Notes under the pieces: generated by a model
Databases searched by the model: none
Told to the model about the DNA's origin: nothing
The model's input: the letters and a program-made list of their open reading frames with translations, nothing else
IMG/VR virus record: IMGVR_UViG_3300048586_000594
Coordinates: 1 to 22,877 of that record
DNA length: 22,877 nucleotides
Origin: a virus
Reading direction: 5' to 3' (one strand)
Program-made: the position numbers and the translations under genes
Shown here: piece after piece, positions 2,268 through 20,337 of the stretch
Numbering within the stretch: the first letter of the stretch is position 1
Layout: each line of letters begins with the position of its first letter

Positions 2268-2299
2268 CGGTGGCCCTCACCACGTCAAGGGATTGAACA

Positions 2300-4934: not shown

Positions 4935-5383
4935 GCACGCCCGTCTACGACTACCTGCAGCTGATCAAGACCGTGCTGGCGGAGATCCGCACCGCCAACG
5001 GCTACCAGACCGACCTTGGCGCGCTGGTGTCGCTGGAGGACACCCAGCAGCTGGACGATGACGGCGCCCGCCTGGTGCTGATGCAGGACACGCTGGGCCG
5101 CTCCACCGACCCGGCCATCCGCGGCGCCGGCTACCGCCTGCAGTTCGCCGTGGTCGCCCAGCACCCGCGCAGCGGCGGCGACACGCAGCTGCGCCTGCAC
5201 CGTGCCCAGTCCGATGTCATCCGCTGCCTGTCGGACCTTGCCCTGCTCAGCGCCACGTTCAAGACCGCTGGCGTGTCCCTGCCGTTCCCTCAATTCGAAG
5301 AAAGCGTCATGGCCTCGCAGGTGGAAGGTATGGCGTGGGTCGGCGTTGCCGTCCGCTATTCCGCACACCTGCGCCCTCGCTAA
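4931..5383 (+). CDS. gpU-like tail terminator protein
   Basis: A 150-aa protein starting at ATG 4931 in an ATGA overlap with the previous gene. Its alpha/beta pattern fits tail terminators of the gpU class: an N-terminal helix (YDYLQLIKTVLAEIRTANGY), a strand GYRLQFAVVAQ, and a helix LHRAQSDVIRCLSDL. Tail terminators cap the growing tail tube and bind the neck. It directly precedes the major tail protein, as in lambda. The in-frame upstream start at 4907 would lie inside the preceding gene and is not preferred. Confidence 0.6.
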   Translation: MSTPVYDYLQLIKTVLAEIRTANGYQTDLGALVSLEDTQQLDDDGARLVLMQDTLGRSTDPAIRGAGYRLQFAVVAQHPRSGGDTQLRLHRAQSDVIRCLSDLALLSATFKTAGVSLPFPQFEESVMASQVEGMAWVGVAVRYSAHLRPR

Positions 5384-5404
5384 CCCTCAACAGGAGACAC
5401 CGCA

Positions 5405-6163
5405 ATGTCCATTCCTTCCACTGATTACAGCTACCTCGGCAGCGGCTCGATCCTGATCCGCGAATACGGCACCGCCGCGCCGTTGGTCTCGCTGGGCAAT
5501 TGCTCGGCCCTCACCTTCAGCCCGCAGGAGGACGTGAAGTCCCTGCTGGACTACACCGCGCCCGGCGGCAACAAGCGCAACGAAGTGCGCCGCCTCACCG
5601 GTGTGGACATGTCCATGACCTTCCATGACTTCGGTGGCTCGCAGTTCGCCCTCGGCCTGCGCAGTGAAAGCACCGCCATCACCGCCGGCACCGCCACGGA
5701 TGAAGACGCGGTGGCGTACAAGGGCGGCTACACCAAGCTGGCCAAGATCGCCACGGCCCTCACCCTGGTGGAGCCGCAGGGCGGCGGCACGGCCTACACC
5801 GCCGGCACGGACTACGAGCTGCGCGACGGCATGCTGTACATCCCCTCCACCTCCACCATCCCCAACCCGATCGCCGGCGCGGCCAACCTCGACGTCACCT
5901 ACACCTACGTGGCGCAGGAAAAGGTGGAAGCGCTGGTCAATTCCAACAAGCAGTACGAGTTGGTCTTCATCGGCCTCAACGAAGCGCAGAGCGGCAAGCG
6001 CGTGCGAATTGTTGCGCACAAGGTCAGCGGCGGCGTGATCCAGGAGATCGCGGTGCTGGGCGATGACTTCGGCTCCGGCCAGATCAGCGGTGCGCTGCTG
6101 GCGGACAGCACCAAGTCCGGCGCGGGCATCAGCCAGTTCATGACCTGGGAAAACGAAGCCTGA
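5405..6163 (+). CDS. Major tail tube protein
   Basis: A 252-aa protein with the best ribosome site of the tail module (AGGAGA 5392-5397, 7-nt spacing), as expected for an abundant structural protein. It is the first gene since the holin not overlapping its predecessor. Features typical of siphophage tube proteins are the DFGGSQFALGLRSES region, a Gly/Thr-rich beta middle, and a C-terminal Ser/Gly-rich strand region (FGSGQISGALLADSTKSG). It is the positional counterpart of lambda gpV. A strong hairpin follows its stop, also common after tube genes. Confidence 0.8.
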   Translation: MSIPSTDYSYLGSGSILIREYGTAAPLVSLGNCSALTFSPQEDVKSLLDYTAPGGNKRNEVRRLTGVDMSMTFHDFGGSQFALGLRSESTAITAGTATDEDAVAYKGGYTKLAKIATALTLVEPQGGGTAYTAGTDYELRDGMLYIPSTSTIPNPIAGAANLDVTYTYVAQEKVEALVNSNKQYELVFIGLNEAQSGKRVRIVAHKVSGGVIQEIAVLGDDFGSGQISGALLADSTKSGAGISQFMTWENEA

Positions 6164-6172
6164 TCCGTCTCA

Positions 6173-6199
6173 CCCCGGCGCCAGCGTCTGGCGCCGGGG
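6173..6199 (+). terminator. Strong hairpin after the tail tube gene
   Basis: CCCCGGCGCCAG (6173-6184) and CTGGCGCCGGGG (6188-6199) form a perfect 12-bp stem with a CGT loop, 9 bp after the tail-tube stop. It is followed by GCGTT, not a full T-run. It could act as a partial terminator that keeps tube mRNA above the downstream chaperone and tape-measure mRNA, or as a 3' stabiliser. The inverted repeat is certain; termination is inferred. Confidence 0.6.
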
Positions 6200-6230
6200 G
6201 CGTTGCCCGCTTTCCACCTGACAGGATCCC

Positions 6231-6779
6231 ATGAACAACAACAACCACGCCGCCGAAGACGACACCGCCGCGGCCTTCATTCCTGCACCGCGATCCGTGG
6301 AATTCAACGGTGCCGAGATCGTCATCGACACGTTCGACGTGCTGCAAACGATCCGCCTGATCCAGCAGCTCAAGGGTGTGCTCGTGCGCGTGCGCGAGGG
6401 CGCGCTGCCGCTCGACCGGATCCAGGCGCTGATCGGCAAGATCGTCGACGCGCCGGAGGAAGACGAAGAGGCGAGCGCTGATTTCGACCTCACCGCTGCG
6501 GAGATGGAGCTGGTGATCTCGCTGCTCTCCGAGTTCGCCGAGCCGATCACGGAACTCGTGGCCATTGCCATCCGCAAGCCGGTGGCGTTCGTGCAGTCCT
6601 CGAAAGACTTCACCGGACTGATCCGCCTCTGCATCGCCATCGGCAAGGTGAACGCAAGTTTTTTCGGCCAGCAGGCCAGCGCGCTCCTGGCCGACCTGCG
6701 GTCCGTGGGGGCGACCAATCCGGCAAGTGGCGCTGGGCTGACGCCATCCACGGCCTCTGCCGCGTCGGCTACCCACTGA
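6231..6779 (+). CDS. Tail assembly chaperone G-like (zero-frame product)
   Basis: A 182-aa acidic, helical protein starting at ATG 6231 after AGGA (6223-6226). It lies between the tail tube and tape-measure genes, the fixed position of the siphophage chaperone pair that coats the tape measure during tail assembly. Helical stretches include FDVLQTIRLIQQLKGVLVRV, and ELVISLLSEFAEPITELVAI at about 92-111. The C-terminal 20 residues are low-complexity Ala/Ser/Thr/Gly. As in lambda, a longer fusion with the next frame is predicted through a slippery site at 6659-6665. Confidence 0.8.
   Translation: MNNNNHAAEDDTAAAFIPAPRSVEFNGAEIVIDTFDVLQTIRLIQQLKGVLVRVREGALPLDRIQALIGKIVDAPEEDEEASADFDLTAAEMELVISLLSEFAEPITELVAIAIRKPVAFVQSSKDFTGLIRLCIAIGKVNASFFGQQASALLADLRSVGATNPASGAGLTPSTASAASATH
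6659..6699 (+). promoter_or_regulatory. -1 programmed frameshift site (T TTT TTC plus stem)
   Basis: The heptamer TTTTTTC at 6659-6665 is phased as T TTT TTC in the chaperone frame (Phe codons 6660-6662 and 6663-6665), matching the X XXY YYZ rule for -1 slippage. Downstream, GGCCAG (6674-6679) can pair with CTGGCC (6687-6692) 8 nt after the heptamer. GCAGG (6671-6675) can also pair with CCTGC (6695-6699). The -1 frame is open from here through 6946. Slippage would give a GT protein of about 238 aa. Confidence 0.8.
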
Positions 6780-6793
6780 GGGACGTGTTGACC

Positions 6794-6946
6794 ATGCCGC
6801 TGCCGCAGTTCCGCGTGTTGTCCGAAGCCGAGGCGCGGTCCCAGCGCCGCGCCCAGGTCAACGCGTGCATGGCGGCGCGCAGCGCGCAGATGGAAGGCAA
6901 GGACTTCGAGAAGCTGATGAAGGGGCTGGGCGGCGATGGCAAATAA
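6794..6946 (+). CDS. T-like extension of the tail chaperone (GT via frameshift)
   Basis: From its own ATG 6794 this frame encodes only 50 aa, but it is open back through the slippery site at 6659. It is most likely translated as the C-terminal 93 residues of a GT fusion. The frameshifted stretch before 6794 reads as real protein (WADAIHGLCRVGYPLRDVL), which would be unexpected of noise. The rest is charged and helical (SEAEARSQRRAQV, then EGKDFEKLMKGLGG). GT proteins bridge tape measure and tube subunits in lambda. It ends with TAA 6944-6946, overlapping the tape-measure start by 11 bp, as in other siphophages. Confidence 0.75.
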   Translation: MPLPQFRVLSEAEARSQRRAQVNACMAARSAQMEGKDFEKLMKGLGGDGK

Positions 6947-9449
6947 CACCGACCTGCGCGTCCGCATCAGTGCGGACATGGCCGACATCAAGCAGGGCCT
7001 CGGGCTGCTGCGCGGGGAGTTGGCCAAGGTCAAGGCGCAAGCCGCGCAGACCGCGCCGGACACCACCGCGTGGAGCCGCGGCCTGGCCGGGCTGCGCCAG
7101 CAGGTGCTGGACGTGGCGGCGGCCTATGTCAGCTGGCGCGCGATCAGCGGCATCGTGCGCGGGGTGTTCGATTCGTTCGACAGGATGGACCGCATCGATG
7201 AAATGCGGCAGATGGTTGCGCTGTCGTCGGAAGAACTCAGCAAGTTCGCCTACGCCGCGCAGTTCTCCGGCGTGGAACTGGAATCGCTGGGCAAGGGCTT
7301 CAGCTTTTTCCAGCGCAACCTGTCCAAGAACGGCGAGCTGCTGAAGACCCTGGGCGTGGACGCGCCCAGCCTCAGCGGCAAACTGCGGCAGCTGCTGGAC
7401 GTGTTCTCGAAGTTGCCGGACGGCCCGGAGAAGGCGGCCGTGGCGGCGGAACTGTTCGGGTCGCGCTTCGGCGCCAACCTGATCCCGCTGCTCAACGAAG
7501 GCGTGCAGAAATTCGATGAATTGAGCGAGGCCGCCGCCCGCACCGGCAACGTCTTCACCGACGAAGCCACCGCCGGCGCCGCGCAGTTCAACGACAACCT
7601 GGACACCATGAAGTCCACGCTGTCTGGCGTGTTCAACGTGGCCGCGCAGCAGCTGATCCCGGCCATGTCGGCGTATGCGGGGGAGGCCAACGAAGCCGCG
7701 CAGCAGAGCCAGCTGGCCGCCGAGGGCGGCCGGTTCCTGGCCAGCGCGTTCAAGATCGTGGGCGTCGGCGCCGCGATCGTGAAGAACACCGTGGAAGCCG
7801 TGGTCAACGTGCTGGCCTTCCTGGCCGATAGCGCGCTGAATACCGCGCGGACCATCACCACGGCCCTGGGCGGTGCGTTCAGCACCGTGGGCGCCTCCAT
7901 GAAGGCGTTCCTCAGCGGCGGGCCGCTGGCCGCCTTCAACGTCTTCACCGAAGGCGTGAAGAAGAACTCTGGCGCGCTGCTGGCGGCAAGCAAGACCAAC
8001 GCCAACCAGATCAAGGGCGGCTGGAATGCCATGCGGGATGGCGTGACCAGCGCCGTGTCGGACGTGGGCAGGGCGTTCGACGCCGCCTTCGCCACCGGCA
8101 ACGCCAGCGCGAACCGTGCGAAGGATGGCGTGCAAGGCATCGGCACCGCGGCGCAGGAGGCCACCGCCAAGGGCGAAGCCCTGCGGAAGACGCTGGCCGC
8201 CCTGTTCAACCCCAATCCATCGGGCGGGGCGAAGGCCGCGTCCGCCGCGAAGGACAAGGCGAAGGAACTCATCGCCGGGCTGGCCGACCAGGGCGCGCTG
8301 GCGCTGGATCAGGTCGACCGCGATCTGGACGCGCTCGAGCAGCGTTACGAAGACGGGCTGGTCAAGCTGTCCGACTACTTCGCCCAGCGCCAGGCGCTGG
8401 AACTGCAGCGCATCGACACCAAGATCGAGGAAGCGCAGGCCGATGCGCTGGCCGCGAAGAGCAGCGAAGAGCAATCCCGCGCCCTTACCGAGATCATCAA
8501 GCTGCAGCGCGATCGCGCGGCCATCGGCCCGGCCACGGCACGCGAGCAGGCCAAGGCGGAAAAGGAAGCCGCGGCGGCCACGCTGGAAAACCTGCGGGCC
8601 AAGCAGGCGGACATCCAGCAGCGGTTGCAGGGCGGCACCGACTTCATCGCCGCGCAGGTGCAGATCGGCGCGGTTGGGCCGTTCGAAGCGGAGCGCCAGC
8701 TGTTCGACCTGCGCCAGCGCAGCATCGAGCAGCTGCGCGCCCTGCGGCAGGCGGTGGTCAATTACCTGGCGGCGCAGGCGGCGGGCAGTCCGGAGCATGC
8801 GGCGGCCATTGCCGGCCTGCAGGATCTGGACACCCAGATCGCGCAGGTGCAGGCCTCCCAGCAGACCTTCGCCAACGGGGTGAAAGAGCAGGCCACGCAG
8901 TCGCTCACCACCTTTTTCACCGACCTGGCGAACGGCGCGAAGAGTTTCAAGGACGCGTTCAAGGACATGGTGGTCAGCTTCGTGCAGGGGCTGGCGCGCA
9001 TGGCCGCGGAAGCGCTGGCGCAGCAGGCCATCCAGGCCTTGTTCCGCACGCTTGGCAGCGGTTTCGCGCAGGGCGGCGCCTTCACCAGCAGCGGCCAAGC
9101 CTTCGCCAAGGGCGCGGCGTTCGCGCTGCCCGGGCTGATGGCGTTCGCCAACGGCGGCGCGTTCACCAACCAGATCTTCAGCGATCCCACGCTGTTCAAG
9201 TTCGGCGCCGGCGGCCAGTTCGGCGTGATGGGCGAAGCCGGCCCGGAAGCGGTGATGCCGCTCACGCGCGGGCCGGGCGGGCGGCTGGGCGTAGATGCGC
9301 ATGGTGGCGGCGGTGGCCGCAGCCGGGTCACCACGCCCATCGTGGTGCTGGGTGACCGCGCCCTGGCCGATGCGCTGGCCGGCACCGCGGGCGAGGACGT
9401 GGTGATCACCCACGTGATGAACAACATCGACAAGATCCGGGGCGCCTGA
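6936..9449 (+). CDS. Tail tape measure protein (lambda gpH-like)
   Basis: An 837-aa protein starting at ATG 6936 (upstream AAGGGG 6920-6925), overlapping the T frame. The N-terminal 50 residues (LRVRISADMADIKQGLGLLR) and the block at about 55-195 are typical tape-measure sequence. Residues about 265-330 are Ala/Val-rich and could span a membrane. Residues about 430-610 are long charged helices (coiled coil). The C-terminus is lambda-family: AFANGGAFTNQIFS, FGVMGEAGPEAVMPLTRG, then a Gly-rich tail. It sets tail length and is thought to enter the host envelope. At about 1.5 angstrom per residue, this length predicts a tail of about 125 nm. A long open frame on the opposite strand is a GC-bias artefact. 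Confidence 0.93.
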   Translation: MANNTDLRVRISADMADIKQGLGLLRGELAKVKAQAAQTAPDTTAWSRGLAGLRQQVLDVAAAYVSWRAISGIVRGVFDSFDRMDRIDEMRQMVALSSEELSKFAYAAQFSGVELESLGKGFSFFQRNLSKNGELLKTLGVDAPSLSGKLRQLLDVFSKLPDGPEKAAVAAELFGSRFGANLIPLLNEGVQKFDELSEAAARTGNVFTDEATAGAAQFNDNLDTMKSTLSGVFNVAAQQLIPAMSAYAGEANEAAQQSQLAAEGGRFLASAFKIVGVGAAIVKNTVEAVVNVLAFLADSALNTARTITTALGGAFSTVGASMKAFLSGGPLAAFNVFTEGVKKNSGALLAASKTNANQIKGGWNAMRDGVTSAVSDVGRAFDAAFATGNASANRAKDGVQGIGTAAQEATAKGEALRKTLAALFNPNPSGGAKAASAAKDKAKELIAGLADQGALALDQVDRDLDALEQRYEDGLVKLSDYFAQRQALELQRIDTKIEEAQADALAAKSSEEQSRALTEIIKLQRDRAAIGPATAREQAKAEKEAAAATLENLRAKQADIQQRLQGGTDFIAAQVQIGAVGPFEAERQLFDLRQRSIEQLRALRQAVVNYLAAQAAGSPEHAAAIAGLQDLDTQIAQVQASQQTFANGVKEQATQSLTTFFTDLANGAKSFKDAFKDMVVSFVQGLARMAAEALAQQAIQALFRTLGSGFAQGGAFTSSGQAFAKGAAFALPGLMAFANGGAFTNQIFSDPTLFKFGAGGQFGVMGEAGPEAVMPLTRGPGGRLGVDAHGGGGGRSRVTTPIVVLGDRALADALAGTAGEDVVITHVMNNIDKIRGA

Positions 9450-10621
9450 TGCCGCTGCCGATCTGGGACATCCGCCAAGGCCACGAACTGCGCCACACGC
9501 TGCAGTTCCTGACCGATGTGCTGCCCGCGGCCACGGCGTTCGAGCAGCGCCGCAAGCTGCGCCTGGCGCCGCGGCACCGCATCCGGTCCACCTTCGTGGT
9601 GTCCGGTCAGCGCCGGCAGCAGTTGGAGATGAAGCTGGCGCGGCACGCGGGGGAGGAATGGGAACTGCCGCTGGTGATGTTCGGGCAGGCGCTGGCGGCG
9701 CCGCTGGCGTCTGCGGCCACCAGCATTCCGGCGGACACGGTGGACCGCGGCTTCGTGGCCGGTGGCCGCGCCCTGCTGGGCGAGCCGGACAGCGACGTGC
9801 GCGAGCTGGTGAACATCGCCAGCGTGTCCGCCGGCACGCTCACCCTGACCGGCACCACCGCCAGCGCGTGGCCGGCCGGCACCATGCTGTACCCGCTGCG
9901 TCGGGCGCGGCTGGTGGCGCCGCCGGAGTTGCCGCGCTTCACCGGCACGGACATCTACGGCGAAGTCGAGTTCGAACTCACCGAGCCGCTGGACTGGCGC
10001 ACCCACACCTGGGCGGACACCTACCGCGCCGCGCCGGTGCTGCCGTTCGAGGTGGACTGGTCGCAGGATCCGCTGCTGTCCCTGCCGCGCCGGCTGCTGC
10101 CGGTGGACGTGCAGACCGGCGTGCAATCCTTCTACGACCTGCCGGACGTGCCACTGGGCAGCCTGCAGGTGGCGTACACCGCGGTCGGGCGGGACGGCAT
10201 CGGCGACCTCTACGCCATCCTCTACGCGCTGGCCGGCCGTCTGCGCTCGGTCTGGGTCAGCAGCCTGGCGCGTGATCTGGAGCCGGTGGCATCCGCCAGC
10301 AGCGGCAGCACCACGCTGGACGTGGAGGCCTTCGGGCTGGACGACGCCGATCTGCCGGCCACGCGCCGGGACATCCGCATCCAGTTCGCCAGCGGGGCGG
10401 TGGCGTATCGCCGCATCACCAACGTGACCACGCCCAGCGCCGGCGTGGAGCGCATCACGCTGGACAGCGCGCTGGGCACGGCGATCGCACCCGGCGACGG
10501 CACGGTGATCAGCTGGCTGTGGCTGGCGCGGCAGGCGGCGGACGTGAACGCGCTGGGCTACTGGACCGGCGACGTGATCGAAACCACGCTGGCCTTCGAG
10601 GGCATCAACCATGACCTCTGA
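9449..10621 (+). CDS. Distal tail / baseplate protein, large
   Basis: A 390-aa protein starting at ATG 9449 in a TGATG overlap with the tape-measure stop, where the distal tail protein is normally encoded. The N-terminus (MPLPIWDIRQGHELRHTLQFLTDVL) is followed by several beta-rich stretches, including a Gly/Thr/Ser segment (VSAGTLTLTGTTASAWPAG, about residues 130-148) and a similar repeat-like one near 310-345. The pattern suggests stacked beta-barrel domains of a Dit-type ring protein. I do not recognise a named family with confidence. The next gene overlaps it by 11 bp, so both are probably coupled. Confidence 0.55.
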   Translation: MPLPIWDIRQGHELRHTLQFLTDVLPAATAFEQRRKLRLAPRHRIRSTFVVSGQRRQQLEMKLARHAGEEWELPLVMFGQALAAPLASAATSIPADTVDRGFVAGGRALLGEPDSDVRELVNIASVSAGTLTLTGTTASAWPAGTMLYPLRRARLVAPPELPRFTGTDIYGEVEFELTEPLDWRTHTWADTYRAAPVLPFEVDWSQDPLLSLPRRLLPVDVQTGVQSFYDLPDVPLGSLQVAYTAVGRDGIGDLYAILYALAGRLRSVWVSSLARDLEPVASASSGSTTLDVEAFGLDDADLPATRRDIRIQFASGAVAYRRITNVTTPSAGVERITLDSALGTAIAPGDGTVISWLWLARQAADVNALGYWTGDVIETTLAFEGINHDL

Positions 10622-11423
10622 AACCCGCGAGTACAGCACCGAGGACGGTGCGCCGAAGACCTATTTCCGCTTCACCCGCGGCACCGTGCACTGGTACTAC
10701 ACGGACGCCGACCGCGCGCAGACCTACGGCGGCCAGACCTACACCCTGGCGGCCATCAGCCATTCGGAAATCACCGATGGCGGGGACAGCGGCAAGATCA
10801 GCATCACGATCACCATGCCGAAGGACTTGCCGGTCGCGGCCAACTGGTCGCCGTGGCCGCCGCAGGACACCATCGTGGTCACCATCATGACCCAGCACGA
10901 TGGCGAGTCCGACGTGCTGGTGGACTGGATCGGCCGCGTGATCCAGCCGAAGTGGTCCGACAGCACGCTGACACTCACCAGCGAACCCACCGCGACCACG
11001 GCCAAGCGCGGCGGCAAGGGCCGCAAGATTCAGCGCCAGTGCGACCTGGTGCACTACGGCCCGCTGTGCGGCGTGGATCCGGCCGGGCATGAACTGCCGG
11101 CCACGTTGACCGCGGTCTCCGGCTTCGACCTCACCGCCACCGCGTTCCTGTCGCTGCCCAGCGGGCGGCTGGCCGGCGGCTACATCGAGTGGGTGCGGCC
11201 GGACGGCTTGACGGATCGCCGCAGCATCGATGCGCACACCGGCAGCACCATCACCGTCGACTACGGTTCGGAGGATTTCGAGATCGGCCTCGATGTGAGC
11301 GCCTATCCCGGCTGCAACCACACCGACGAAGACTGCGGCGACTACTACGCCAACCAGTTGAACAACGGCGGGTTCAAGTGGCTGCCCAAGCGCAACGTCT
11401 ACGACGGGAGCCCGGTGCGATGA
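10611..11423 (+). CDS. BR0599/DUF2163-type minor tail protein
   Basis: A 270-aa protein starting at ATG 10611, overlapping the previous gene by 11 bp. The N-terminal domain (YFRFTRGTVHWYYTDADR, YTLAAISHSEIT, ISITITMPKD) and the Cys-containing C-terminus (CDLVHYGPLCGVD; PGCNHTDEDCGDYYANQLNN; GGFKWLPKRN) match the phage BR0599/DUF2163 pattern. Those proteins sit in the tail tip of siphophages and gene transfer agents. Six Cys (QCDLV, LCGVD, GCNHT, DCGDY region) could form disulfides or bind metal. Probable role: hub protein at the distal tail, next to the tip attachment protein. Confidence 0.7.
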   Translation: MTSETREYSTEDGAPKTYFRFTRGTVHWYYTDADRAQTYGGQTYTLAAISHSEITDGGDSGKISITITMPKDLPVAANWSPWPPQDTIVVTIMTQHDGESDVLVDWIGRVIQPKWSDSTLTLTSEPTATTAKRGGKGRKIQRQCDLVHYGPLCGVDPAGHELPATLTAVSGFDLTATAFLSLPSGRLAGGYIEWVRPDGLTDRRSIDAHTGSTITVDYGSEDFEIGLDVSAYPGCNHTDEDCGDYYANQLNNGGFKWLPKRNVYDGSPVR

Positions 11424-11770
11424 TGACCCTGGCGCTGCAGTATTCCGTCGACGCGCTGCCCTTCGTGCTGCTGCTGGTCCTGATCGACGGCCTGCTGTCG
11501 CCGCGCGGGCGTCGCCCAGGCGCGCAGCTGCCCATCGCCAACTGGATCATCCAGATCGGCCTGATCATCATCAGCAGCCTGATCAGCCGCGCACTGGCAC
11601 CGAAGCCGAAAGCCCCGGAGCCGCAGAAGGCCGATATCCCGGACGTGAAAGACGGCAAGCGCGTGATTCGCATCTACGGCGCGAACTGGATCACCGAACC
11701 CGGGCAGCTGGCGATGAAGCAGATCGACCCGCCAGACCCCATCAAGGCCAAGCAAGGGAAGAAGGGATGA
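11420..11770 (+). CDS. Hydrophobic tail-tip assembly protein, unknown
   Basis: A 116-aa protein with tandem ATG codons at 11420 and 11423. I chose 11420 because it overlaps the previous stop and has GGAG at 11407-11410. Two hydrophobic segments (residues about 9-26, LPFVLLLVLIDGLL; and about 42-60, WIIQIGLIIISSLI) are followed by a Lys/Pro-rich stretch (KPKAPEPQK) and a conserved-looking core (DVKDGKRVIRIYGANWITEPGQLAMKQ). Its position just before the J-like protein recalls lambda gpI/gpK genes, which act in tail-tip assembly and are partly hydrophobic. I do not recognise the family. Confidence 0.6.
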   Translation: MMTLALQYSVDALPFVLLLVLIDGLLSPRGRRPGAQLPIANWIIQIGLIIISSLISRALAPKPKAPEPQKADIPDVKDGKRVIRIYGANWITEPGQLAMKQIDPPDPIKAKQGKKG

Positions 11771-12002
11771 TTGTCCGCGTTCACCACCTTCGGCTGGTGC
11801 GCGGCTACTCCGCGCGCCCGGGCCTGTGCAACCGCGGCGCCCGCGCGTGGTTCGCGCAGCGCGGCTGGGACTGGAGCGCCTTCGTGCGTGACGGCATCGC
11901 CTCCGACGTGCTGCTGGCCACCGGCGACGGCTTCGCCATTGCGCTGGTGCAGGCCGCGCTGGCCGCGGAGTCCACGCCGTGAGCCTGAAGCCGAAAGCCC
12001 CG
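11602..12002 (+). repeat. 16-bp direct repeat flanking a small gene
   Basis: GAAGCCGAAAGCCCCG occurs at 11602-11617, inside the 116-aa gene, and again at 11987-12002, at the very start of the J-like gene. Both copies are read in the frame encoding KPKAP. Recombination between the copies would delete 385 bp and fuse the two frames, although 385 is not a multiple of 3 and the outer frames differ accordingly in absolute phase. It may be chance codon bias or a relic of modular exchange. Confidence 0.45.
11767..11982 (+). CDS. Small conserved phage tail-region protein
   Basis: A 71-aa basic protein starting at ATG 11767 in an ATGA overlap and ending in a GTGA overlap with the J-like gene. Its sequence (HHLRLVRGYSARPGLCNRGARAWFAQRGWDWSAFVRDGI) resembles small proteins found between tail-tip genes in other proteobacterial phages, as I recall. 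No function is known to me. The tight overlaps at both ends support a real, translated gene. Confidence 0.65.
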   Translation: MIVRVHHLRLVRGYSARPGLCNRGARAWFAQRGWDWSAFVRDGIASDVLLATGDGFAIALVQAALAAESTP

Positions 12003-15000
12003 ACCATCGGCTACCACTACAAGTGGGCCATGCACTTCGCCTGGTGCCGCGCCGCCGATGCGCTGCACAAGGTCGAAGCGGGCGCCAAGAGCGTTTGGGA
12101 AGGCTTCGCCTACCAGAACAGCCAGATCACCATCAATGCGCCCGAATGCTGGGGCGGCGAGAAGGCCGAGGGCGGCGTCACCGGCACCATGGACGTGCTG
12201 TTCGGCGGCGCCACGCAAGGCGCGAATTCGTACCTCGCAGGCGTGTTCGGCGGCCCGCAGACCGGCAACCGCAACGTGGTCAGCACCGTGTTCCGCGGTG
12301 GCCGATACGGCGCGTTCGTTCCGAATCCGAAGCCCATGCACATGCTGTGGGAATGCATCCACGCCATGTTCCCGGGCGGGGTGGCGTGGTATCCGGAGAA
12401 GGCGGCGATTCCGCTGGCGGACAGCGAGATCACCGTGCTGGTCGACCCCGACGTGCTGCTGGACGCGAACGATTCATCGCTCAACGGCAGCGGTGGCGGG
12501 TTCGATTTCTATGTGCCGCCCGGGGCGACCATCGTGGTCACCTTGGGGGCGTCCGCCACCGGGTGGAGTTTCACGCCCAGCGACGACTACCAGCCCTACA
12601 ACTACAGCTACCTGACCTGGTGGAACCGCTTCGGGATTGCCAACCTCGACGCGCCGGGCGTGAACGAGGGCAACTTCTGGCCGGACCGCTACGGGACGGC
12701 AGCGGAGGCGTATGCGGCGCACGCCTCCGACGAGGCCGAACTCCCCGCACCCGCCGGCGGCAACTACCGCCTCTACCTGTGGGATGCCGAGATAGACGAC
12801 AACCGCGGCACCGGCTCTTTCGCGGTGTCCTATCGCCGCCCGACCGGCATCAACGCCATGAACCCCGCCCACATCATCTACGACGCCCTCACCGGCGAGG
12901 AGATGCAGGGCGAGCCCACCGGCCTGATCGATGAGGCCAGCTTCATGGCCGCGGCGGATACGCTGTTCGCGGAGGGCTTCGGCCTGTGCACCGCCTACGA
13001 CAGCGATGCGGAATCCCCGTGGGACTTCATCCAGCGGATCTGCAACGTGGCCGGCGCCGCGTGCAGCCAGAGCCGCATCACCGGCCTGTACTACCTGGAC
13101 CTGATCCGCAACGACTACGACATCGAGGATCTGCCGATCATCGGCGACGACGACATCATCGAATGGCAGGAAGAAGCCACGGTGCCGGCGGAGATGGTCA
13201 ACAGCGTGGCGGTGACCTGGTTCGACGTGCTGAACAAGGAAGAACGCACCACCGCGCCGGTGGTCGCGCTGGGCCACGTGCGCACCAGCGGCGAGGTGAT
13301 CCCGCAGACCAGCGTCTACAAGGAAATCCCGTTTGAGGACATCGCCCTGCGCTGCGCCAAGCGCGACGTGGACGGCAAGAGCAAGCCGCTGCGCAAGTTC
13401 AGCCTGACCGTGCAGCGCAAGCACCGGTTCCTGCGCCCGTCCATGCCGTTCCGCCTGCAGGCGCCGAAGCGCGGCATTGCGGACATGGTGTGCCGGCTGG
13501 GCCAGATCAGCCACGGCGTGCACCTGGACGGCCGCGTGCGGATGGTGGCGGTGCAGGACATCTTCGGCCTGCCGTCTGCGGTGCACATCAGCCCGATCAC
13601 CCCGCCGATCGAAGAAACCGACCCCACGGCCTCCGCCCTGGCCGTGGCCATCGAAGCGCCGTACATGGAACTGGCCGGCACCCTCAGCGCGACCGACCTG
13701 GCCGCCGTGGGCGAGGAAGCCGGCTACCTGCTGACCGGCGCCAGCGCGCCCACGCGCGGCCAACGGTATGCGATCTACAGCGCCCTGCTGGCAGAAACGC
13801 TGGAACGCCGCGCCACGGCGGACTTCGCCCCGCATGCCACCACCGCGGGCGCCGCGTTGCCGCTGGACAGCACCGTGGCCCTGGCCACGCAGACCCTGCC
13901 GGAGCGCATCACCGAAGGCGAGTGGGCGCTGTGGGACGACGAGATCATCCGCGTGGACAGCATCATCGGCGGCGTGTTGACCATGGGCCGCGGCTGCGCG
14001 GACACCGTGCCTGCCGCGCACGCCGCGGGCACCACCATCCTGTTCATGGGCGCATGGGGCGGCAGCGACCTGCGCGAGTACGTGGTGGGCGACGAACTCG
14101 CGGTCAAGCTGCCCACGTCCACCGGCAGCGAAGAACAGCCGCTGGCCGACGTCGACCAGCTGGACGTCGAGTTCCGCCAGCGCCAGTTCCGCCCGTACCC
14201 GCCCGGCAACCTGGTCCTCAACGGCGAGCCGTTCTACACCAGCGGCGCCATCATCCCCAGCCCGCCCGGCGGCGGCGGGGGAGGCGGTGGCGGTGGGGGT
14301 GGGCCCGGCGGCGGCGCACCGGGCGAAGACCGCTACCTGATCTACACGCCTGACGGCCTGCCCGCGAGCCGCGAGCTTGGCCCCAATGGCGGTTTCGCGG
14401 ATGACGCGCCGTTCCCGTACCCGCCGCCGGAGGTGTTCGGCAGCAACGTGATCCCGAACGGCGATTTCGCGGATGCCGGCGATCTGGCCGAGTGGACGTT
14501 GAGGGATTGGAGCGCGCTCCCTGCGCTGACCTGGACAATCGACACCGGCAAGCTGCGCTACGCGGGCGACCCGAACGCAGACGGCGGCTATCGCAGCACC
14601 ATTGCCGCGCGTCATGCGAATTACACGATGGGCGCTGCACCCTTCACCCTGTGGCGCGCACACGTATCGGCGAAGGTGCGCACGTTGACGCCTGGCACCA
14701 AAGCGCAGGTTGGCATCATCGTCTCCGGCATCGGCGTTGGCGACTATCTGTCCGCACCGGTTGAAGTCTCCAGCGAGCAGACGATCAGTTACGAGATGGA
14801 TCTGCCGTTCGCGGTGTTGGAAGGCGGCGTGCGGCTCAGGTATCCGTCGATCCGCCCCACGCTGAAGGTCACCACGGACGCCGGTGCGGCCACGGCGCTC
14901 TGGGACGATGCCTCGCTGGAGTTCGAGGACGTGTCGCCCGCGTTCACTGAAATCTTCCCGGCCGGCGTGGACATGCTGGGCGGCGATACCGACTGGGACA

Positions 15001-15428
15001 TCTGGCCCCTCGACGCCTACACCCCGGCGCACGCATGGAGCAGCGGCACGCTGACGGTGACCGTGGGCGATGGGTACATCCCGGCGAAGTACTTCGCGCT
15101 GAAGGACCCGATTGCCAGTTTCGACACGCCCGGCCAGTACATCCGGCTGGAAGCGGACGTCTGGAGCAACGACGAGATCGATTCCTTCCACTGGACGTTC
15201 GGCGGGGTGATGCTGGGCTTGGCGAAAAAGACCGCCGCCGGGTATCAGATCCTCAGCAGCGGCCTGTGGCGCCGCGGCGATTTCACCGCATCCACCGCAT
15301 GGCTGCGCCTGTACGAAGCGCCCGGCGTGGGCGAGACCTGGCATGTGCTGATCGGCTTGCGCGGCCACGCCACGAAGGTGGCGAAGGTGCGCAGCCTGCG
15401 CGTGTTCCGCAGCGGGGTGATCGACTGA
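11979..15428 (+). CDS. J-like tail tip attachment protein
   Basis: A 1149-aa protein, the largest gene of the tail tip, starting at GTG 11979 in a GTGA overlap. Residues 1 to about 600 are conserved-looking hub sequence. They include MHFAWCRAADALHKVEAG, a block at about 330-400 (FGLCTAYDSDAESPWDFIQRICNVAGA), and IIEWQEEATVPAEMVNSVAVTW, which resembles the putative phage tail (Phage-tail_3-type) domain. At 764-782 there is a Gly-rich hinge. Beyond it lie ~370 residues of beta-rich modules (NVIPNGDFADAGDLAEW, typical of carbohydrate-binding-like units) with lower GC3. In lambda-like phages this protein contacts the receptor, so the C-terminus probably determines host range. Short overlaps place it in the late operon. 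Confidence 0.85.
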   Translation: MSLKPKAPTIGYHYKWAMHFAWCRAADALHKVEAGAKSVWEGFAYQNSQITINAPECWGGEKAEGGVTGTMDVLFGGATQGANSYLAGVFGGPQTGNRNVVSTVFRGGRYGAFVPNPKPMHMLWECIHAMFPGGVAWYPEKAAIPLADSEITVLVDPDVLLDANDSSLNGSGGGFDFYVPPGATIVVTLGASATGWSFTPSDDYQPYNYSYLTWWNRFGIANLDAPGVNEGNFWPDRYGTAAEAYAAHASDEAELPAPAGGNYRLYLWDAEIDDNRGTGSFAVSYRRPTGINAMNPAHIIYDALTGEEMQGEPTGLIDEASFMAAADTLFAEGFGLCTAYDSDAESPWDFIQRICNVAGAACSQSRITGLYYLDLIRNDYDIEDLPIIGDDDIIEWQEEATVPAEMVNSVAVTWFDVLNKEERTTAPVVALGHVRTSGEVIPQTSVYKEIPFEDIALRCAKRDVDGKSKPLRKFSLTVQRKHRFLRPSMPFRLQAPKRGIADMVCRLGQISHGVHLDGRVRMVAVQDIFGLPSAVHISPITPPIEETDPTASALAVAIEAPYMELAGTLSATDLAAVGEEAGYLLTGASAPTRGQRYAIYSALLAETLERRATADFAPHATTAGAALPLDSTVALATQTLPERITEGEWALWDDEIIRVDSIIGGVLTMGRGCADTVPAAHAAGTTILFMGAWGGSDLREYVVGDELAVKLPTSTGSEEQPLADVDQLDVEFRQRQFRPYPPGNLVLNGEPFYTSGAIIPSPPGGGGGGGGGGGGPGGGAPGEDRYLIYTPDGLPASRELGPNGGFADDAPFPYPPPEVFGSNVIPNGDFADAGDLAEWTLRDWSALPALTWTIDTGKLRYAGDPNADGGYRSTIAARHANYTMGAAPFTLWRAHVSAKVRTLTPGTKAQVGIIVSGIGVGDYLSAPVEVSSEQTISYEMDLPFAVLEGGVRLRYPSIRPTLKVTTDAGAATALWDDASLEFEDVSPAFTEIFPAGVDMLGGDTDWDIWPLDAYTPAHAWSSGTLTVTVGDGYIPAKYFALKDPIASFDTPGQYIRLEADVWSNDEIDSFHWTFGGVMLGLAKKTAAGYQILSSGLWRRGDFTASTAWLRLYEAPGVGETWHVLIGLRGHATKVAKVRSLRVFRSGVID
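14268..14324 (+). repeat. Glycine hinge, G-rich low-complexity coding tract
   Basis: Twelve consecutive Gly codons (14268-14303, residues 764-775) are followed by Pro, three Gly, Ala, Pro and Gly. Codons vary (GGC, GGG, GGA, GGT), so this is not a perfect microsatellite. It separates the conserved hub from the C-terminal beta modules. The + strand has clustered G runs that could form a quadruplex. Confidence 0.8.
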
Positions 15429-15429
15429 C

Positions 15430-15804
15430 ATGCTGACCCTGACCTGGCAAGACCACAACCGCCTCCTCCAGGCCGATCAAGTCGTTGCCTACGACGACGG
15501 CGACACCGGCCGCGAAGACGGCCAGCAGACCATTGTCGAGTGGCGCTTCGGCGCCAGCAGCACCGGCCCCTGGGGCGCGCCCACCATCAGCACCGTGACC
15601 GCTCCGCAGACCGCCAGCTACGACCCGCCCGGCGACGGCTGGGTGCAGATCACCTGCTACACCATCCGCGATGGGCTGGTGAGTTGGCAGGCGCATGTGG
15701 GGGTGCTGCAGGTGGTGGGCGGCGGCCTGTTCGATCCGACCCCATACGAAGACGAAGACGGCGACCTCTACGTCGACCAAGACGCCAACATCTACGAGGG
15801 CTGA
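15430..15804 (+). CDS. Small tail-tip/fibre-associated protein, unknown
   Basis: A 124-aa protein starting at ATG 15430, 1 bp after the J-like stop. Residues about 35-95 (IVEWRFGASSTGPWGAPTIS, then DPPGDGWVQITCYTIRDGLVSWQAHVGVLQV) are beta-rich and could form an Ig- or FN3-like fold. The acidic C-terminus (PYEDEDGDLYVDQDANIYEG) has regularly spaced Asp residues, similar to a calcium-binding loop, though no standard EF-hand is present. Position among receptor-binding genes suggests a virion accessory or fibre partner. I do not recognise the family. Confidence 0.6.
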   Translation: MLTLTWQDHNRLLQADQVVAYDDGDTGREDGQQTIVEWRFGASSTGPWGAPTISTVTAPQTASYDPPGDGWVQITCYTIRDGLVSWQAHVGVLQVVGGGLFDPTPYEDEDGDLYVDQDANIYEG

Positions 15805-15807
15805 CCC

Positions 15808-16350
15808 ATGCCGAACAAGCGTTTCAACGACAACCCCGCGCTGATCGCGCTGGCCGGCACCGAGATCCTGGCCGGCACCTCGATCGCTGGTGGCAGCGCG
15901 GATCCCACGGGCAGCATTGCTGCTGGGCAAGACATCAAGGTGTCGGTGGCGAAGCTACGCGACTGGCTGGCGCAGAACGGCACGAAAACCTGCCTGGCGA
16001 TCGCCTGCAGCGATGAGTCCACCGCGCTGACCGCCGGGACCAACAAGGCGAAGTTCATCAACCCGTTCCCGACCGTCTTCAACGTGGTTGCAGTGGTGGC
16101 ATCGCTGTCCGCGGCGCAGACCAGCGGCAGCATCTTCACTGTCGACATCAACGAGGCGGGCACCTCGATCCTGTCGACCAAGCTCACCATCGACAACGAC
16201 GAGACCAACAGCAGCACCGCGGCCACGCCGGCGGTCATCAGCGACGGCGCGATCGCGGCCTTCGCGGAGGTCGGCGTTGACATCGACCAGGTCGGCGGTG
16301 GACAGGCCAAGGGCCTGAAGGTGTACCTGATCGGGTGGCTGTCGCCGTGA
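15808..16350 (+). CDS. Putative tail fibre / virion surface protein
   Basis: A 180-aa protein starting at ATG 15808. The N-terminal 55 residues (NDNPALIALAGTEILAGTSIAGG, then DIKVSVAKLRDWLAQNG) look like a fibre attachment segment. Residues about 60-180 form one beta domain (CLAIACSDESTALTAGTNKAKF; FTVDINEAGTSILSTKLTI; AATPAVISDGAIAAFAEVGV; AKGLKVYLIGW). I recognise this module from many phage tail-fibre and adhesin-type proteins, where it probably assembles as a trimeric or collar-like domain. It ends in a GTGA overlap with the LamG protein, so the two are likely made together and may form one receptor-binding structure. Confidence 0.65.
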   Translation: MPNKRFNDNPALIALAGTEILAGTSIAGGSADPTGSIAAGQDIKVSVAKLRDWLAQNGTKTCLAIACSDESTALTAGTNKAKFINPFPTVFNVVAVVASLSAAQTSGSIFTVDINEAGTSILSTKLTIDNDETNSSTAATPAVISDGAIAAFAEVGVDIDQVGGGQAKGLKVYLIGWLSP

Positions 16351-17216
16351 GCCGGGTCATCGTCCCGCGTCGAAGCCTGATTCTGCCGAGCCGCTTCCGG
16401 CAGAAGCAGGGCGGGTTCATCATGAACCCGTATGCACATGGCGGTTCCGCAGACGATGGCATCAGCTTCGCCAACGTCCGATTGCTGTTGCACGGTGACG
16501 GCGCGGACGGCGCGACCAGCATCACCGACAGCAGCAGCTACGCGCGCACGATGACGCGGGTTGGCACCTCTGAAATCGACACCGCGCAGAGCGTGTTCGG
16601 CGGTTCATCGCTCTACATTCCCGCCAGCACCAGCGGCTGGACGTGCGTGTCCGATGCGAACCTGGACATGCGCACCGGCGCCTTCCAGCTTGACTGGCGG
16701 CACCGCCTTGCGGCCAACCTGACCAGCACCTCGCAGTTCGACACGGTGCTGGCGATGGTCAATGGCGACACGTGGTTCTATGAGTGGGCGATAGGCCTCG
16801 ATCGCAACTACATCCGGTTTTACTACGGGCGCCGCGGCATCACCTCCGGCGGCATCCGCTGGCTGCTGCCGGGCGGCTACGACTTCGGCACGCTGGGCGG
16901 CGTGCAGGTCGCGTGCTCAATCGCCCGAGACACCTCAGGCAAGTGGGGCGCATGGGTCGATGGCAACCGATGCACGCAATACCAGACAGCCGCGCAATCC
17001 GGCTCCCCGGCATGGGGCGGCGTCACCACTGGCACCTTGACCGATGGAACCGATTTCGGGTCATCCGGCACCCGCACCTTGAACGTGGGCAGGTTCTGGA
17101 CGTTCAGCGGGCTGGCCGTGGATAAGCACATCGATGAGCTGCGCTATGTGACCGGCCAGAGCCGCGACGTAACCAGCGATTACACCCCGCTCGCGTCGGC
17201 ATTCCCGAACAGCTGA
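16347..17216 (+). CDS. LamG-like lectin-domain tail adhesin
   Basis: A 289-aa protein. The start is GTG 16347, overlapping the previous stop (GTGA) and giving MSRVIVPRRSLILPSRFRQK, an N-terminus that looks like a virion-binding tag. An ATG at 16335 in frame is less likely. Residues about 40-280 fit a concanavalin A/LamG-type jelly roll: VRLLLHGDGADGATSITDSS, SVFGGSSLYIP, then an IARDTSGKWGAWVDGNR strand pair and KHIDELRYVTGQSRDVTSDYTP near the end. Such domains bind glycans, so a receptor-binding role on the host surface is likely. Its composition is less GC3-biased than the head genes. It is the last late gene and ends 3 bp from the convergent integrase. Confidence 0.75.
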   Translation: MSRVIVPRRSLILPSRFRQKQGGFIMNPYAHGGSADDGISFANVRLLLHGDGADGATSITDSSSYARTMTRVGTSEIDTAQSVFGGSSLYIPASTSGWTCVSDANLDMRTGAFQLDWRHRLAANLTSTSQFDTVLAMVNGDTWFYEWAIGLDRNYIRFYYGRRGITSGGIRWLLPGGYDFGTLGGVQVACSIARDTSGKWGAWVDGNRCTQYQTAAQSGSPAWGGVTTGTLTDGTDFGSSGTRTLNVGRFWTFSGLAVDKHIDELRYVTGQSRDVTSDYTPLASAFPNS

Positions 17217-17219: not shown

Positions 17220-18311
17220 CTACCGCCCCGCCACATCCTCCGGCTTCAGGTGTGTATAGCGCTTCAGCGTCGCCCAGCTTTCGTGCAGCGTGAACTGCGC
17301 CACTTCGTGGATGGGGTGGCCAAGTTCGAATAACCGGCTGGTGGCTTCGTGCCGCAGGTCGTGGAAGTGCAGATCCTCGATGCCCAGCACCTTCATGCCG
17401 CGGGTGAAGGCGGCGCCGATCGCGTCCGTGTTGAACGGGAAGATGCGCGGCACCTCGGTGGTGGTGCCGTCGCTGTTGACCACGTGCCGCTTCGGTTGGC
17501 GTTCGATGATCGCCCAGGCCGCCTCCGACATGCGGAAGTGCTTGTGGTTCCCGATCTTCTTACGCGGGTGCTTGACGTCGCGCAGCAGGGCGGTGCGCTT
17601 GGCGGGCTCGAGGTCGGCCCACTGCAGGCGGGTGATTTCCTCCATGCGGCGGGCGCTGGCCAGCGCGAAGCGGACGATATCGCCCATCGGCAGGGCGCCG
17701 CGGCGGCCGTCCATGAACGCCAGGATGATCGCTTCTTCGCCCCGATAGTCGCCGTGCGCAGCCTTCAGGCGCCGCTCCCGGGTCTTCGGCTTGGCGATGG
17801 TGCGCTCCTGGCGCAGGAACTCGCTGGCGTCCTCCAGCGCCTGCAGCGGCACCGGCACGCGCAGCTTGGCGGCCACCGACTTGAACACCTGCCTCAGCCA
17901 GATCACGTCATTGCCCGCCGTGGCCGGCCCGGCGCCGGCATCGCGGCGGCTGTCGATGTAGTCGATGAAGTCGCTGGCGCCCATCCGGTCCGCCCGCTTG
18001 TCCGCCAGCGCGCCCAGCTTCAGGCGCAGCAGGTCCGCCTTTTTCGTGCGGCCCCACGGTTCCTCCGGCCGCTCCCGGCCTTCATACCAGGTCACCATCT
18101 CGCCGATGGTCATGCGCTTGCCGACCGCCTCGCCGCGGGCGCGCTGGCCTTCCAGTTCGGCCTCCCGTCGGCGGATCCATTCCTTCGCCAGCGCCGCGGT
18201 GCCGAAGGTCTGCGATTCGGTGTGCACCAGCACCCCGTCCCGCTTGACCCGGATTTGCGCGGTGTGCCGAACACCGCCAGACTTGCTGCGCCGCGCTACG
18301 ATCGTTCCCAT
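17220..18311 (-). CDS. int: Tyrosine site-specific integrase, dusA-associated type
   Basis: A 363-aa phage integrase of the tyrosine recombinase family, reading away from dusA. Catalytic residues are visible: Arg222 (RRMEEITRL), Lys247 (DVKHPRKK), His317-x-x-Arg320 (HFHDLRHEATSRL), His343 (LHESWATLKRY) and nucleophile Tyr352. The N-terminal ~60 residues (arm-binding type, with SKSGGVRHTAQIRVKRDG) and a SAM-like core-binding domain at about 68-165 complete the expected layout. The gene starts at 18311, 83 bp from dusA, the arrangement known for integrases that insert into the dusA 5' end. No terminator separates its 3' end from the convergent late operon. No excisionase gene is visible nearby. 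Confidence 0.95.
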   Translation of the reverse strand: MGTIVARRSKSGGVRHTAQIRVKRDGVLVHTESQTFGTAALAKEWIRRREAELEGQRARGEAVGKRMTIGEMVTWYEGRERPEEPWGRTKKADLLRLKLGALADKRADRMGASDFIDYIDSRRDAGAGPATAGNDVIWLRQVFKSVAAKLRVPVPLQALEDASEFLRQERTIAKPKTRERRLKAAHGDYRGEEAIILAFMDGRRGALPMGDIVRFALASARRMEEITRLQWADLEPAKRTALLRDVKHPRKKIGNHKHFRMSEAAWAIIERQPKRHVVNSDGTTTEVPRIFPFNTDAIGAAFTRGMKVLGIEDLHFHDLRHEATSRLFELGHPIHEVAQFTLHESWATLKRYTHLKPEDVAGR

Positions 18312-18314
18312 TGG

Positions 18315-18393
18315 TGCTACATGGCCGGTTGCGTAGCACGCACTGTAGCATTTCGGTTAGCCAATACCCGGGAAAACACGGAAATACGTAGCG
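18315..18393. repeat. Four GTAGCA-type hexamers between int and dusA
   Basis: TGCTAC at 18315-18320 (GTAGCA on the other strand), GTAGCA at 18333-18338 and 18345-18350, and GTAGCG at 18388-18393. The middle two are direct repeats 12 bp apart. The cluster lies beside the integrase start and the presumed attachment core, where arm-type integrase or excisionase sites would be expected. They could equally be operators for the int promoter. The sequence repeats are certain; their role is inferred. Confidence 0.5.
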
Positions 18394-18394
18394 A

Positions 18395-19429
18395 ATGCAG
18401 CAGGCAGGAACCCCAACAGAATCAGCCTCTAAGCCGCGCAGCCCTTATGTTTCAGGCAATATCAGGCTGTCCGTCGCCCCCATGATGGACTGGACCGATT
18501 CGCATTGCCGGGCCTTCCACCGCGTGCTGGCGCCGCATGCGCGCCTGTACAGCGAGATGGTCCACGCGAACGCGGTGATCCACGGCGACCGCGCGCGCCT
18601 GCTGGCGATGAACGCGTCCGAGCACCCGGTGGCGTTGCAGCTGGGCGGCAGCGAGCCGGCGTTGCTGGCACAGGCCGCACGGATCGGCGCCGAGGCCGGC
18701 TTCGACGAGATCAACCTCAATTGCGGCTGCCCGTCCGACCGCGTGCAGGCCGGGCGCTTCGGCGCCTGCCTGATGCGCGAGCCAGCGCTGGTCGCCGACA
18801 GCGTGGCGGCGATGATCGCGGCGGTTCCCGGGGTGCCGGTGACGGTGAAATGCCGTCTCGGTGTGGACGACGACCACGAGTGGGAGCGTTTCCTCGCCTT
18901 CATCGACGCCATCGCCCAAGCGGGCTGCGCGACCTTCGTGGTGCATGCACGCAATGCCTGGCTGCAGGGCCTGTCGCCGAAGGAAAACCGCGAGGTGCCG
19001 CCGCTGCGCTACGACTGGGCGTATCGGTTGAAGCAGGAACGCCCGCAGTTGCAGGTGATCGTCAACGGCGGCATTGCCGACGCCGCGGAAGCGACCGCGC
19101 ACCTGGCCCATGTCGAGGGCGCGATGCTCGGTCGCGCGGCGTACCACACGCCTTACCTGCTGCACGAACTGGATGTCGCGTGGTTCGGCGGTACGCTGCG
19201 TTCGCGCGTGGAACTGCTGCGTGCCTATCGCCCGTACGTGGACGCACAGTTGGCGAAGGGCGTGTTCCTCAAGCACATCACCCGGCACGTGCTCGGCCTG
19301 TTCGCCGGCCAGCCCGGCGGGCGTGCGTTCCGCCAGGTGCTGAGCGAAGGCGCGCACAAGCCGGGCCCCGACTGGGCGCTGGTCGAACAGGCGCTGGCGC
19401 TGACCGAACGCAGGGAGCAGGCGGCATGA
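18395..19429 (+). CDS. dusA: tRNA-dihydrouridine(20/20a) synthase DusA
   Basis: A 344-aa FMN enzyme that uses NADPH to reduce uridine to dihydrouridine at D-loop positions 20/20a of tRNA. Clear DusA motifs: LSVAPMMDWTDSHCR (residues 25-39), EINLNCGCPSDRVQAG with catalytic Cys112, FGACLM, VTVKCRLGVDD, FVVHARNAWLQGLSPKENR, and IVNGGIAD. The first ~24 residues (MQQAGTPTESASKPRSPYVSGNIR) are unlike normal DusA, which begins just before LSVAPMMDWTD. They are probably encoded by the prophage end after integration. ATG 18395 is the only in-frame ATG before the core and has only a weak ribosome site (GGAA 18380-18383). The enzyme therefore looks functional but with a replaced 5' end and promoter. Confidence 0.95.
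   Translation: MQQAGTPTESASKPRSPYVSGNIRLSVAPMMDWTDSHCRAFHRVLAPHARLYSEMVHANAVIHGDRARLLAMNASEHPVALQLGGSEPALLAQAARIGAEAGFDEINLNCGCPSDRVQAGRFGACLMREPALVADSVAAMIAAVPGVPVTVKCRLGVDDDHEWERFLAFIDAIAQAGCATFVVHARNAWLQGLSPKENREVPPLRYDWAYRLKQERPQLQVIVNGGIADAAEATAHLAHVEGAMLGRAAYHTPYLLHELDVAWFGGTLRSRVELLRAYRPYVDAQLAKGVFLKHITRHVLGLFAGQPGGRAFRQVLSEGAHKPGPDWALVEQALALTERREQAA
18464..18499 (+). other. Presumed prophage attachment region in dusA
   Basis: This stretch encodes RLSVAPMMDWTD, the most conserved DusA N-terminal block. It is the known insertion region of dusA-associated integrases, and DusA-like sequence starts here abruptly. The attachment core should lie in or just upstream of it. Only one copy is in the window, so the exact core cannot be defined; the other copy should lie at the left end of the prophage. 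Confidence 0.5.
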
Positions 19430-20337
19430 TCACCCGCGACATCGATGCCTTCGTCGCCTTCGCGCGCAACGCTGCCGCCGATTTCGGCCCGGCGACCGCA
19501 CGTGCGGCGTTCCTGGTGGCACCCGACGGCTTCGCCCTGGCCGAACAGTCGGCGCAGGACAACGCGTACATGGCCGATGCCGCGGCCTTCGACGCGCAAC
19601 GCGCCTCGATGGAGCATCGCGACCTGCAGCGCGCGATCTCCGCGGTGCTGCCGACGGTGTGCTTCGCCGGCGATCCTGCCACCCCCGACGCGGTGTTTCC
19701 CAACAATGTCTTCGGCACCGCCGCCGGCACGTACATCCTCGGCCGCATGCGCCACGAAGTGCGCCAGCGCGAGGCGACGCGCGCTGACATCCGTGGCTTT
19801 TTCCGCGACGTGCTGGGCTACGCCGGAACCGACCTCTCCACCCAACCGCATCCTTGCGAGCTGACCGGCGCGCTGGTGATCGACCGCGCACGCGGCCTGG
19901 GCTTCTGCGGCCTGTCCGAGCGCTGCGACGAGGCGGGCGCCGCGCTGATGCACGAGGCCTTCGGCCTGCGCGCGACCCTGATGTTCGACCTGGCCCCCGG
20001 CGAGTACCACACCAACGTGGTGCTGGCGGTGCTGGCGGGTCGTGCCACGGTGCTGTGCCCGCGCGGGTTCGCCGATGCCGCCGTGCCGGAGGCCATTGCC
20101 GGGCTGTACGCACCGCATGCGCTGGTCTGTGACGCCACCGAACATGCCGCGTTCGCTGGCAATTGCATTGCCTTGTCCGCGGAGACCGTGTGGATGAGCG
20201 CACGCGCGGACGCGGCACTGACCGGGGTCCATCGCGCGCAACTGGCGACGGCGGGGTTCCGGGTCGAGACCGTGGCGTTGGCGGCGATCGAAGCGGCGGG
20301 CGGCTCGTTGCGCTGCTGCATCGGTGAGGTGTTCTGA
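19426..20337 (+). CDS. CtlX-like citrulline/arginine-type hydrolase
   Basis: A 303-aa member of the amidinotransferase/dimethylargininase superfamily, closest in pattern to the CtlX (FN0238-like) group, which acts on citrulline- or arginine-type substrates. Motifs: DAVFPNNVFGT (residues 88-98), ALVIDRARGLGFCGLSERCD, EYHTNVVLAV with catalytic His195, FAGNCIAL, and the C-terminal LRCCIGEVF with Cys297 as likely nucleophile. Length is normal for the group (about 300). ATG 19426 overlaps the dusA stop (ATGA), implying co-transcription, so it shares the promoter altered by prophage insertion. The exact substrate cannot be read from the sequence. No signal peptide; cytoplasmic. Confidence 0.8.
   Translation: MITRDIDAFVAFARNAAADFGPATARAAFLVAPDGFALAEQSAQDNAYMADAAAFDAQRASMEHRDLQRAISAVLPTVCFAGDPATPDAVFPNNVFGTAAGTYILGRMRHEVRQREATRADIRGFFRDVLGYAGTDLSTQPHPCELTGALVIDRARGLGFCGLSERCDEAGAALMHEAFGLRATLMFDLAPGEYHTNVVLAVLAGRATVLCPRGFADAAVPEAIAGLYAPHALVCDATEHAAFAGNCIALSAETVWMSARADAALTGVHRAQLATAGFRVETVALAAIEAAGGSLRCCIGEVF

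Follow-up and report, generated by a model that had tools for sequence, protein, structure and literature searches.

A prophage integrated in dusA of a Thermomonas-like host appears to supply the start codon and first 23 residues of the gene

Introduction

When a phage has integrated at the 5' end of a gene, where does the start of that gene come from? The question is raised by the window analysed here, which is the whole of IMG/VR record IMGVR_UViG_3300048586_000594 (22,877 bases, with the left prophage end missing) and in which phage genes adjoin a dusA gene. Integrases associated with dusA (DAI), and the islands and prophages specific to that gene, were described by Farrugia et al. 2015 (PMC4482086); about half of the dusA-specific islands are prophages (PMC4482086). 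The dusA-specific island IMEVchUSA3 of Vibrio cholerae provides a new start, N-terminus and promoter for dusA (PLoS Genet 2021, PMC8409611), and a translational lacZ fusion to that promoter was active, with expression below that of native dusA (PMC8409611). ICE SXT in prfC has been named as a precedent (PMC8409611), though its target is unrelated to dusA and it lies outside the DAI family.

Results

Organisation of the window

Phage head and tail genes occupy 199..17216 on the + strand, a late region with an incomplete left end and PHROGs matches to a major head protein, an endolysin, a major tail protein, a tape measure, tail assembly and tail proteins. A tyrosine recombinase of the DAI family follows on the - strand (17220..18311; PF00589, E 2.5e-17), then a leader (18312..18394) and the dusA ORF on the + strand (18395..19429; PF01207, E 3.3e-78). 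The integrase and dusA starts (18311 and 18395) are divergent with 83 bp between them, the spacing given by the first-pass annotation. A DDAH/CtlX-like pentein gene (19426..20337, + strand; PF19420, E 1.1e-30) overlaps dusA by 4 bases; to its right lie a gene for a response regulator (20934-21617) and then one resembling histidine kinases, which runs off the right end of the window. The late phage genes (199-17216) point toward dusA across the opposite-strand integrase and the leader (17220-18395). No + strand terminator was found in 17100-18600, so read-through from the late genes into dusA during induction is possible. Opposite the tape-measure and tail genes are long - strand ORFs at 6936-9449 and 11979-15428 (851 aa, 994 aa), probably a by-product of the 68% GC content.

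The integrase is apparently intact, judged by its sequence. The R-H-R-H/Y catalytic set of tyrosine recombinases is complete, and residues R222, K247, H317, R320, H343 and Y352 are present in 103-109 of 109 aligned homologues. Aligned over 98%, the protein is 39% identical to the integrases of BcepMigl and BcepIL02, 38% to that of DC1, 36% to that of H66 and 33% to that of AH2, all of which are named as DAI carriers (PMC4482086). A related integrase was found in 39 of 395 genomes of the host family, the nearest being 73% identical. Searching viral contigs for the same phage with exact start-region and arm patterns gave no closely matching second copy.

The start of dusA is foreign to the host

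Homology to DusA begins at residue 24 (RLSVAPMMDWTD), and residue 5 of the solved dihydrouridine synthase 3b0p aligns to this same residue, so the replaced part consists of the tail before the first strand and the residues leading into that strand. The in-frame codons upstream of the homology run back to a stop and contain a single ATG, at 18395. The start codon and first 23 codons (MQQAGTPTESASKPRSPYVSGNI) thus occupy 18395..18463 on the + strand; the core (GTCGCCCCCATGATGGACTGGACCGA; 18473..18498, + strand) lies inside dusA, encodes VAPMMDWT(D) and is shared with attL, attR and attP-type junctions of relatives, and the rest of the gene (18499..19429, + strand) is a host dusA body with 80-90% DNA identity to Thermomonas-type dusA.

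The comparison set comprised 80 related dusA loci fetched from bacterial genomes, the nearest being those of Thermomonas (DusA 86-90% identical; 90% for Thermomonas haemolytica). The breakpoint in identity was located by aligning the window, in register with the core, against seven prophage-free Thermomonas-type dusA loci. Both 18312-18394 and 18395-18463 gave 41-49% identity to these seven loci, as compared with 42-46% for shuffled sequence, and from 18464 onward the identity was 80-91%. In prophage-free relatives DusA begins about 12-15 residues before RLSVAPMMDW, typically with M..ASPAIPADQL. The 23-residue start was absent from all of the prophage-free Thermomonas-type relatives, and no integrase relative was found upstream of dusA in the prophage-free relatives. 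The first-pass annotation had placed the beginning of conserved DusA at about codon 24 and had regarded the preceding codons as atypical; both points are borne out, the prophage-free relatives carrying neither the 23-residue start nor, beyond shuffled-level identity, the sequence upstream of it.

Prophage-bearing relatives show the reverse relationship. The leader is 64-68% identical in the six with the nearest integrases (L084, G355, G103, G105, G218 and L085) and 59% identical in G301; by this measure it is prophage-derived and would form the P' arm of attP. The N-terminal codons share 46-62% DNA identity with class-2 prophage-bearing relatives, the best being L084 at 62% (shuffled, 44), and are at shuffled level only with G105. 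The dusA body is 73-85% identical to those of prophage-bearing relatives, below its similarity to Thermomonas. As read from these alignments, the reversal of similarity at the core is the pattern made by site-specific recombination, and an origin of the start codon, the 23 residues and the leader in the prophage is well supported.

Two candidate relics of phage starts elsewhere were considered. Lysobacter niastensis (L023), whose DusA N-terminus resembles a phage start, was rejected as a fossil of one, having a TACAAT box upstream and neither integrase nor arm repeat. N-termini of the form 'RYxxSI' are unsupported as relics given that the host-side attL fragment of G319 has RYAASL.

Attachment sites in related elements

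The core pattern was located in 12 of the 39 genomes with a related integrase, and attL/attR pairs occur in genomes whose integrases are 56-73% identical. Both sites lie on one contig in G269 (attL 17966, attR 62281, 44 kb apart) and in G342 (17 kb apart), and on separate contigs of one genome in G103, G218 and G340; G105 has attR and, on another contig, a candidate attL that is weaker, having 2 mismatches. In G269 the attL reads MHSISANAIRLS and then, across the junction, VAPMMDWTDGEK followed by a stop, while the attR reads MIESESSASEARNPGNPRDKAQIRLS and then VAPMMDWTDTHCR. Every attL passes from a host start through the core into non-dusA sequence, with an early stop in most, and every attR passes from a phage start through the core into the dusA body in frame; no stop interrupts the frame from the phage start into dusA in any of the 16 attR junctions inspected. 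Junctions of attP type, from free phage or otherwise (L090, L093, L156), have the start and core and then sequence unlike dusA, as does L092, which lies on a record-end contig and continues from start and core into non-dusA sequence. The distance from int to core is 161-174 bp in isolate and metagenome-assembled genomes with the same arrangement.

The window core matches the region of 21-bp semiconserved repeats described by Farrugia et al. (PMC4482086). The attR copy of these ∼21-bp repeats is within the window and the left end is outside the record; relatives show both ends. A search for a second core copy across the 22,877-base window, like that for the left prophage end, found none. The dusA fragment expected at the left prophage end is therefore seen in the attL of relatives, the left end of this element lying outside the record. 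With the similarity step at the core and the open frame, these attL and attR sites uphold the first-pass view of a prophage integrated in the 5' end of dusA with its N-terminal codons replaced.

Tandem and decayed elements were also encountered. In contig G319:C2 cores occur at 77754, 115024 and 152294 (L216, L224, L226), a spacing of exactly 37,270 bp, and these are two elements of identical length in tandem in dusA. In Lysobacter sp. ISL-50 (L071, 3152-6038) only 2.86 kb separates attL from attR and the integrase is in fragments, while dusA keeps the element-supplied start with an open frame. L062 looks like an element that has lost its integrase. Together, L071 and L062 indicate that the exchange of starts can outlast the element.

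Repeats in the leader vary together with their opposite arm

The leader contains TGCTAC at 18315 and GTAGCA at 18333 and 18345 (together 18315..18350), one inverted and two direct copies, and there is only one further GTAGCA/TGCTAC copy in the window, at 15655. The same layout between int and core recurs in relatives (L217, L214, L164, L165, L168 and others), and in attL and attP a matching copy is found about 54 bases past the core, on the opposite arm. The motif varies among elements (GTAGCA, GTACCA, GGAGCAC, GGTGCAA, TTACCACC) and the two arms usually differ together: the mean longest shared word was 9.2 for own arm pairs and 6.9 for mismatched pairs (13 elements, permutation p 5e-5), with G402, the tandem-like L100, L106 and L116, and L092, which ends within a short contig, left out. 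Three of the four junctions G402, L100, L106 and L116 match their own arm less well. In L116 a GTAGCAA arm is paired with a GTACCA arm, and its record (G410) has a second integrase, L235, with GTACCA repeats in its leader, so this hybrid junction probably joins two elements in tandem. Similar mixed junctions occur in L100 and L106, with only one integrase found for each. The likeliest reading of the leader repeats, on the pattern of their sequences, is that they are arm-type sites for the integrase or for an excision factor (RDF). A literature search found no text combining dusA, arm-type and integrase.

Loss of the native promoter

Among dusA loci without a detected integrase, 42 of 74 have a TANAAT box, mostly TACAAT, that ends 4-10 bases (typically 6-9) ahead of an in-frame start; it precedes the dusA start in all eight of the loci L003-L010. 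A box so close to the start codon suggests, as far as sequence can tell, a leaderless transcript across much of the family, and native dusA mRNA is probably leaderless in the nearest relatives. At attR junctions the box occurs in 1 of 16 (Fisher p 2e-4 even with this one counted), and that match, in L217, was discounted as it falls within the reading frame. The attL fragments of G269, G340 and G005 (n=3) retain the box, at the far side of the prophage. Integration thus cuts dusA off from its native promoter, the box being rare at attR and still present in three attL.

A consensus scan of 17100-18600 for a sigma-70-like site found none, and no clear Shine-Dalgarno sequence precedes the new dusA start. 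The first-pass annotation had the prophage supplying start codon, N-terminus and promoter. The start and N-terminus stand; with no replacement sigma-70 site in the scan, the supply of a promoter by the prophage is inferred from topology and from published precedent for the Vibrio member of the DAI family (PMC8409611).

The downstream gene

The gene at 19426..20337 is, by sequence comparison, a conserved host neighbour: it is present in 72 of the 80 related dusA loci, within 250 bp downstream in 66, although it is not nearby in the Thermomonas-type loci L004, L006, L007 and L009. The overlap with dusA had been noted in the first-pass annotation and is confirmed at 4 bases, as is the resemblance to CtlX at the level of the wider family PF19420. 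Against the CtlX equivalog NF046062 of NCBIfam the protein scores 93 bits for a cut-off of 334, so its sequence places it as a DDAH/CtlX-like pentein in the wider family only, and a role in citrulline or arginine metabolism is speculative. Any effect of the prophage on tRNA modification or on citrulline/arginine metabolism is likewise speculative; a polar effect on the downstream gene is possible.

Discussion

The window very probably holds the right end of a temperate tailed phage integrated in dusA, its attR joining phage leader and start to a host dusA body. The host would be a Thermomonas-like member of the Lysobacteraceae, and the dusA-associated tyrosine recombinase would integrate the phage at the dusA block encoding VAPMMDWTD. 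Beside int, attP would carry a stretch that finishes with a start codon, some 23 codons and the phage's own copy of the core. Crossover in the core would then give attR, with phage leader, phage start and host dusA body in frame, and at the other end attL, with host promoter, host start, core and an early phage stop. Expression of dusA and of the overlapping host gene would come from phage-derived DNA until the prophage excised. The mosaic boundary at the core, the open frame, the homologous starts in related prophages and attP-type junctions and the attL of relatives can all be read in the sequences; what we infer is that the phage-derived DNA has promoter activity, that the prophage excises and how its own left end is built.

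The alternative that survives best accepts the exchange of starts but assumes little or no expression of dusA and its downstream neighbour, the open frame being a leftover of the att core with no working prophage promoter behind it. Loss of the native TACAAT box, together with the want of a sigma-70-like site or clear Shine-Dalgarno sequence, would fit this, as would the absence of a phenotype from dusA deletion in the A. baumannii assays tested. The tested Vibrio element can be cited on either side, for it lowers dusA expression but does drive it. Since the frame from the phage start is open in 16 of 16 inspected attR junctions and is still open in the eroded L071, a silent or weak gene is considered unlikely. 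Joining of phage and host contigs by the assembler at the conserved core is very improbable. It would fit a record that belongs to a virus collection and has host genes at its end, and a core that is naturally repeated in such elements, but isolate and metagenome-assembled genomes share the arrangement, with int and core 161-174 bp apart, so that the joined form is the expected structure of a lysogen. Ordinary drift of host sequence beside a prophage that merely adjoins dusA is scarcely credible, for while N-termini ahead of RLSVAPMMDW do differ among hosts, the similarity step at the core is sharp, the upstream part resembles prophage-bearing genomes and not the nearest hosts, and attP-type junctions have the same kind of start.

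Integration of a phage that brings its own start to dusA agrees with the DAI elements of Farrugia et al., in which the integrase adjoins the dusA 5' end divergently, the core lies in the same block of dusA and the 5' end is replaced in frame. The window differs in its host, a Thermomonas-like member of the Lysobacteraceae, and in its leader repeats, read as likely arm-type sites. Farrugia et al. predicted -10/-35 sites after integration (PMC4482086), and none of that type was found in the window. Most DAI prophages have an excision factor of PrtN/RdfN type across attP, which in the window would fall at the missing left end. IMEVchUSA3 is a mobilizable island whereas the window element is a phage, and its new N-terminus has native length and 61% identity, compared with 23 residues in the window, unrelated in sequence, against about 12-13 in Thermomonas-type DusA. 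The closest elements are prophage UViG_3300028590_000136 (L084), G355, G103, G105 and G218, with integrases 64-73% identical, a homologous leader, GTAGCA repeats and int-core spacing of 161-165 bp, but with other hosts and divergent N-terminal codons.

The mechanism is thus already published, in 2015 (Farrugia et al.), and was tested experimentally for relatives in 2021 (PMC8409611). The present analysis adds a new host group and two further points: a conserved promoter box close to the start is lost, and repeats in the leader covary with the opposite arm. It may be suggested, tentatively, that occupancy of the leader sites by the phage integrase or excision factor sets the expression of dusA and the downstream gene, replacing a leaderless constitutive native promoter. 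A native promoter box no more than 10 bases from the start codon, and always cut away, provides an explanation at the level of sequence for changed dusA expression, and the covarying arm repeats can be used to match integrases to their sites and to spot tandem or hybrid elements by sequence alone. Another bacterial group thereby confirms that such phages are built to keep dusA readable.
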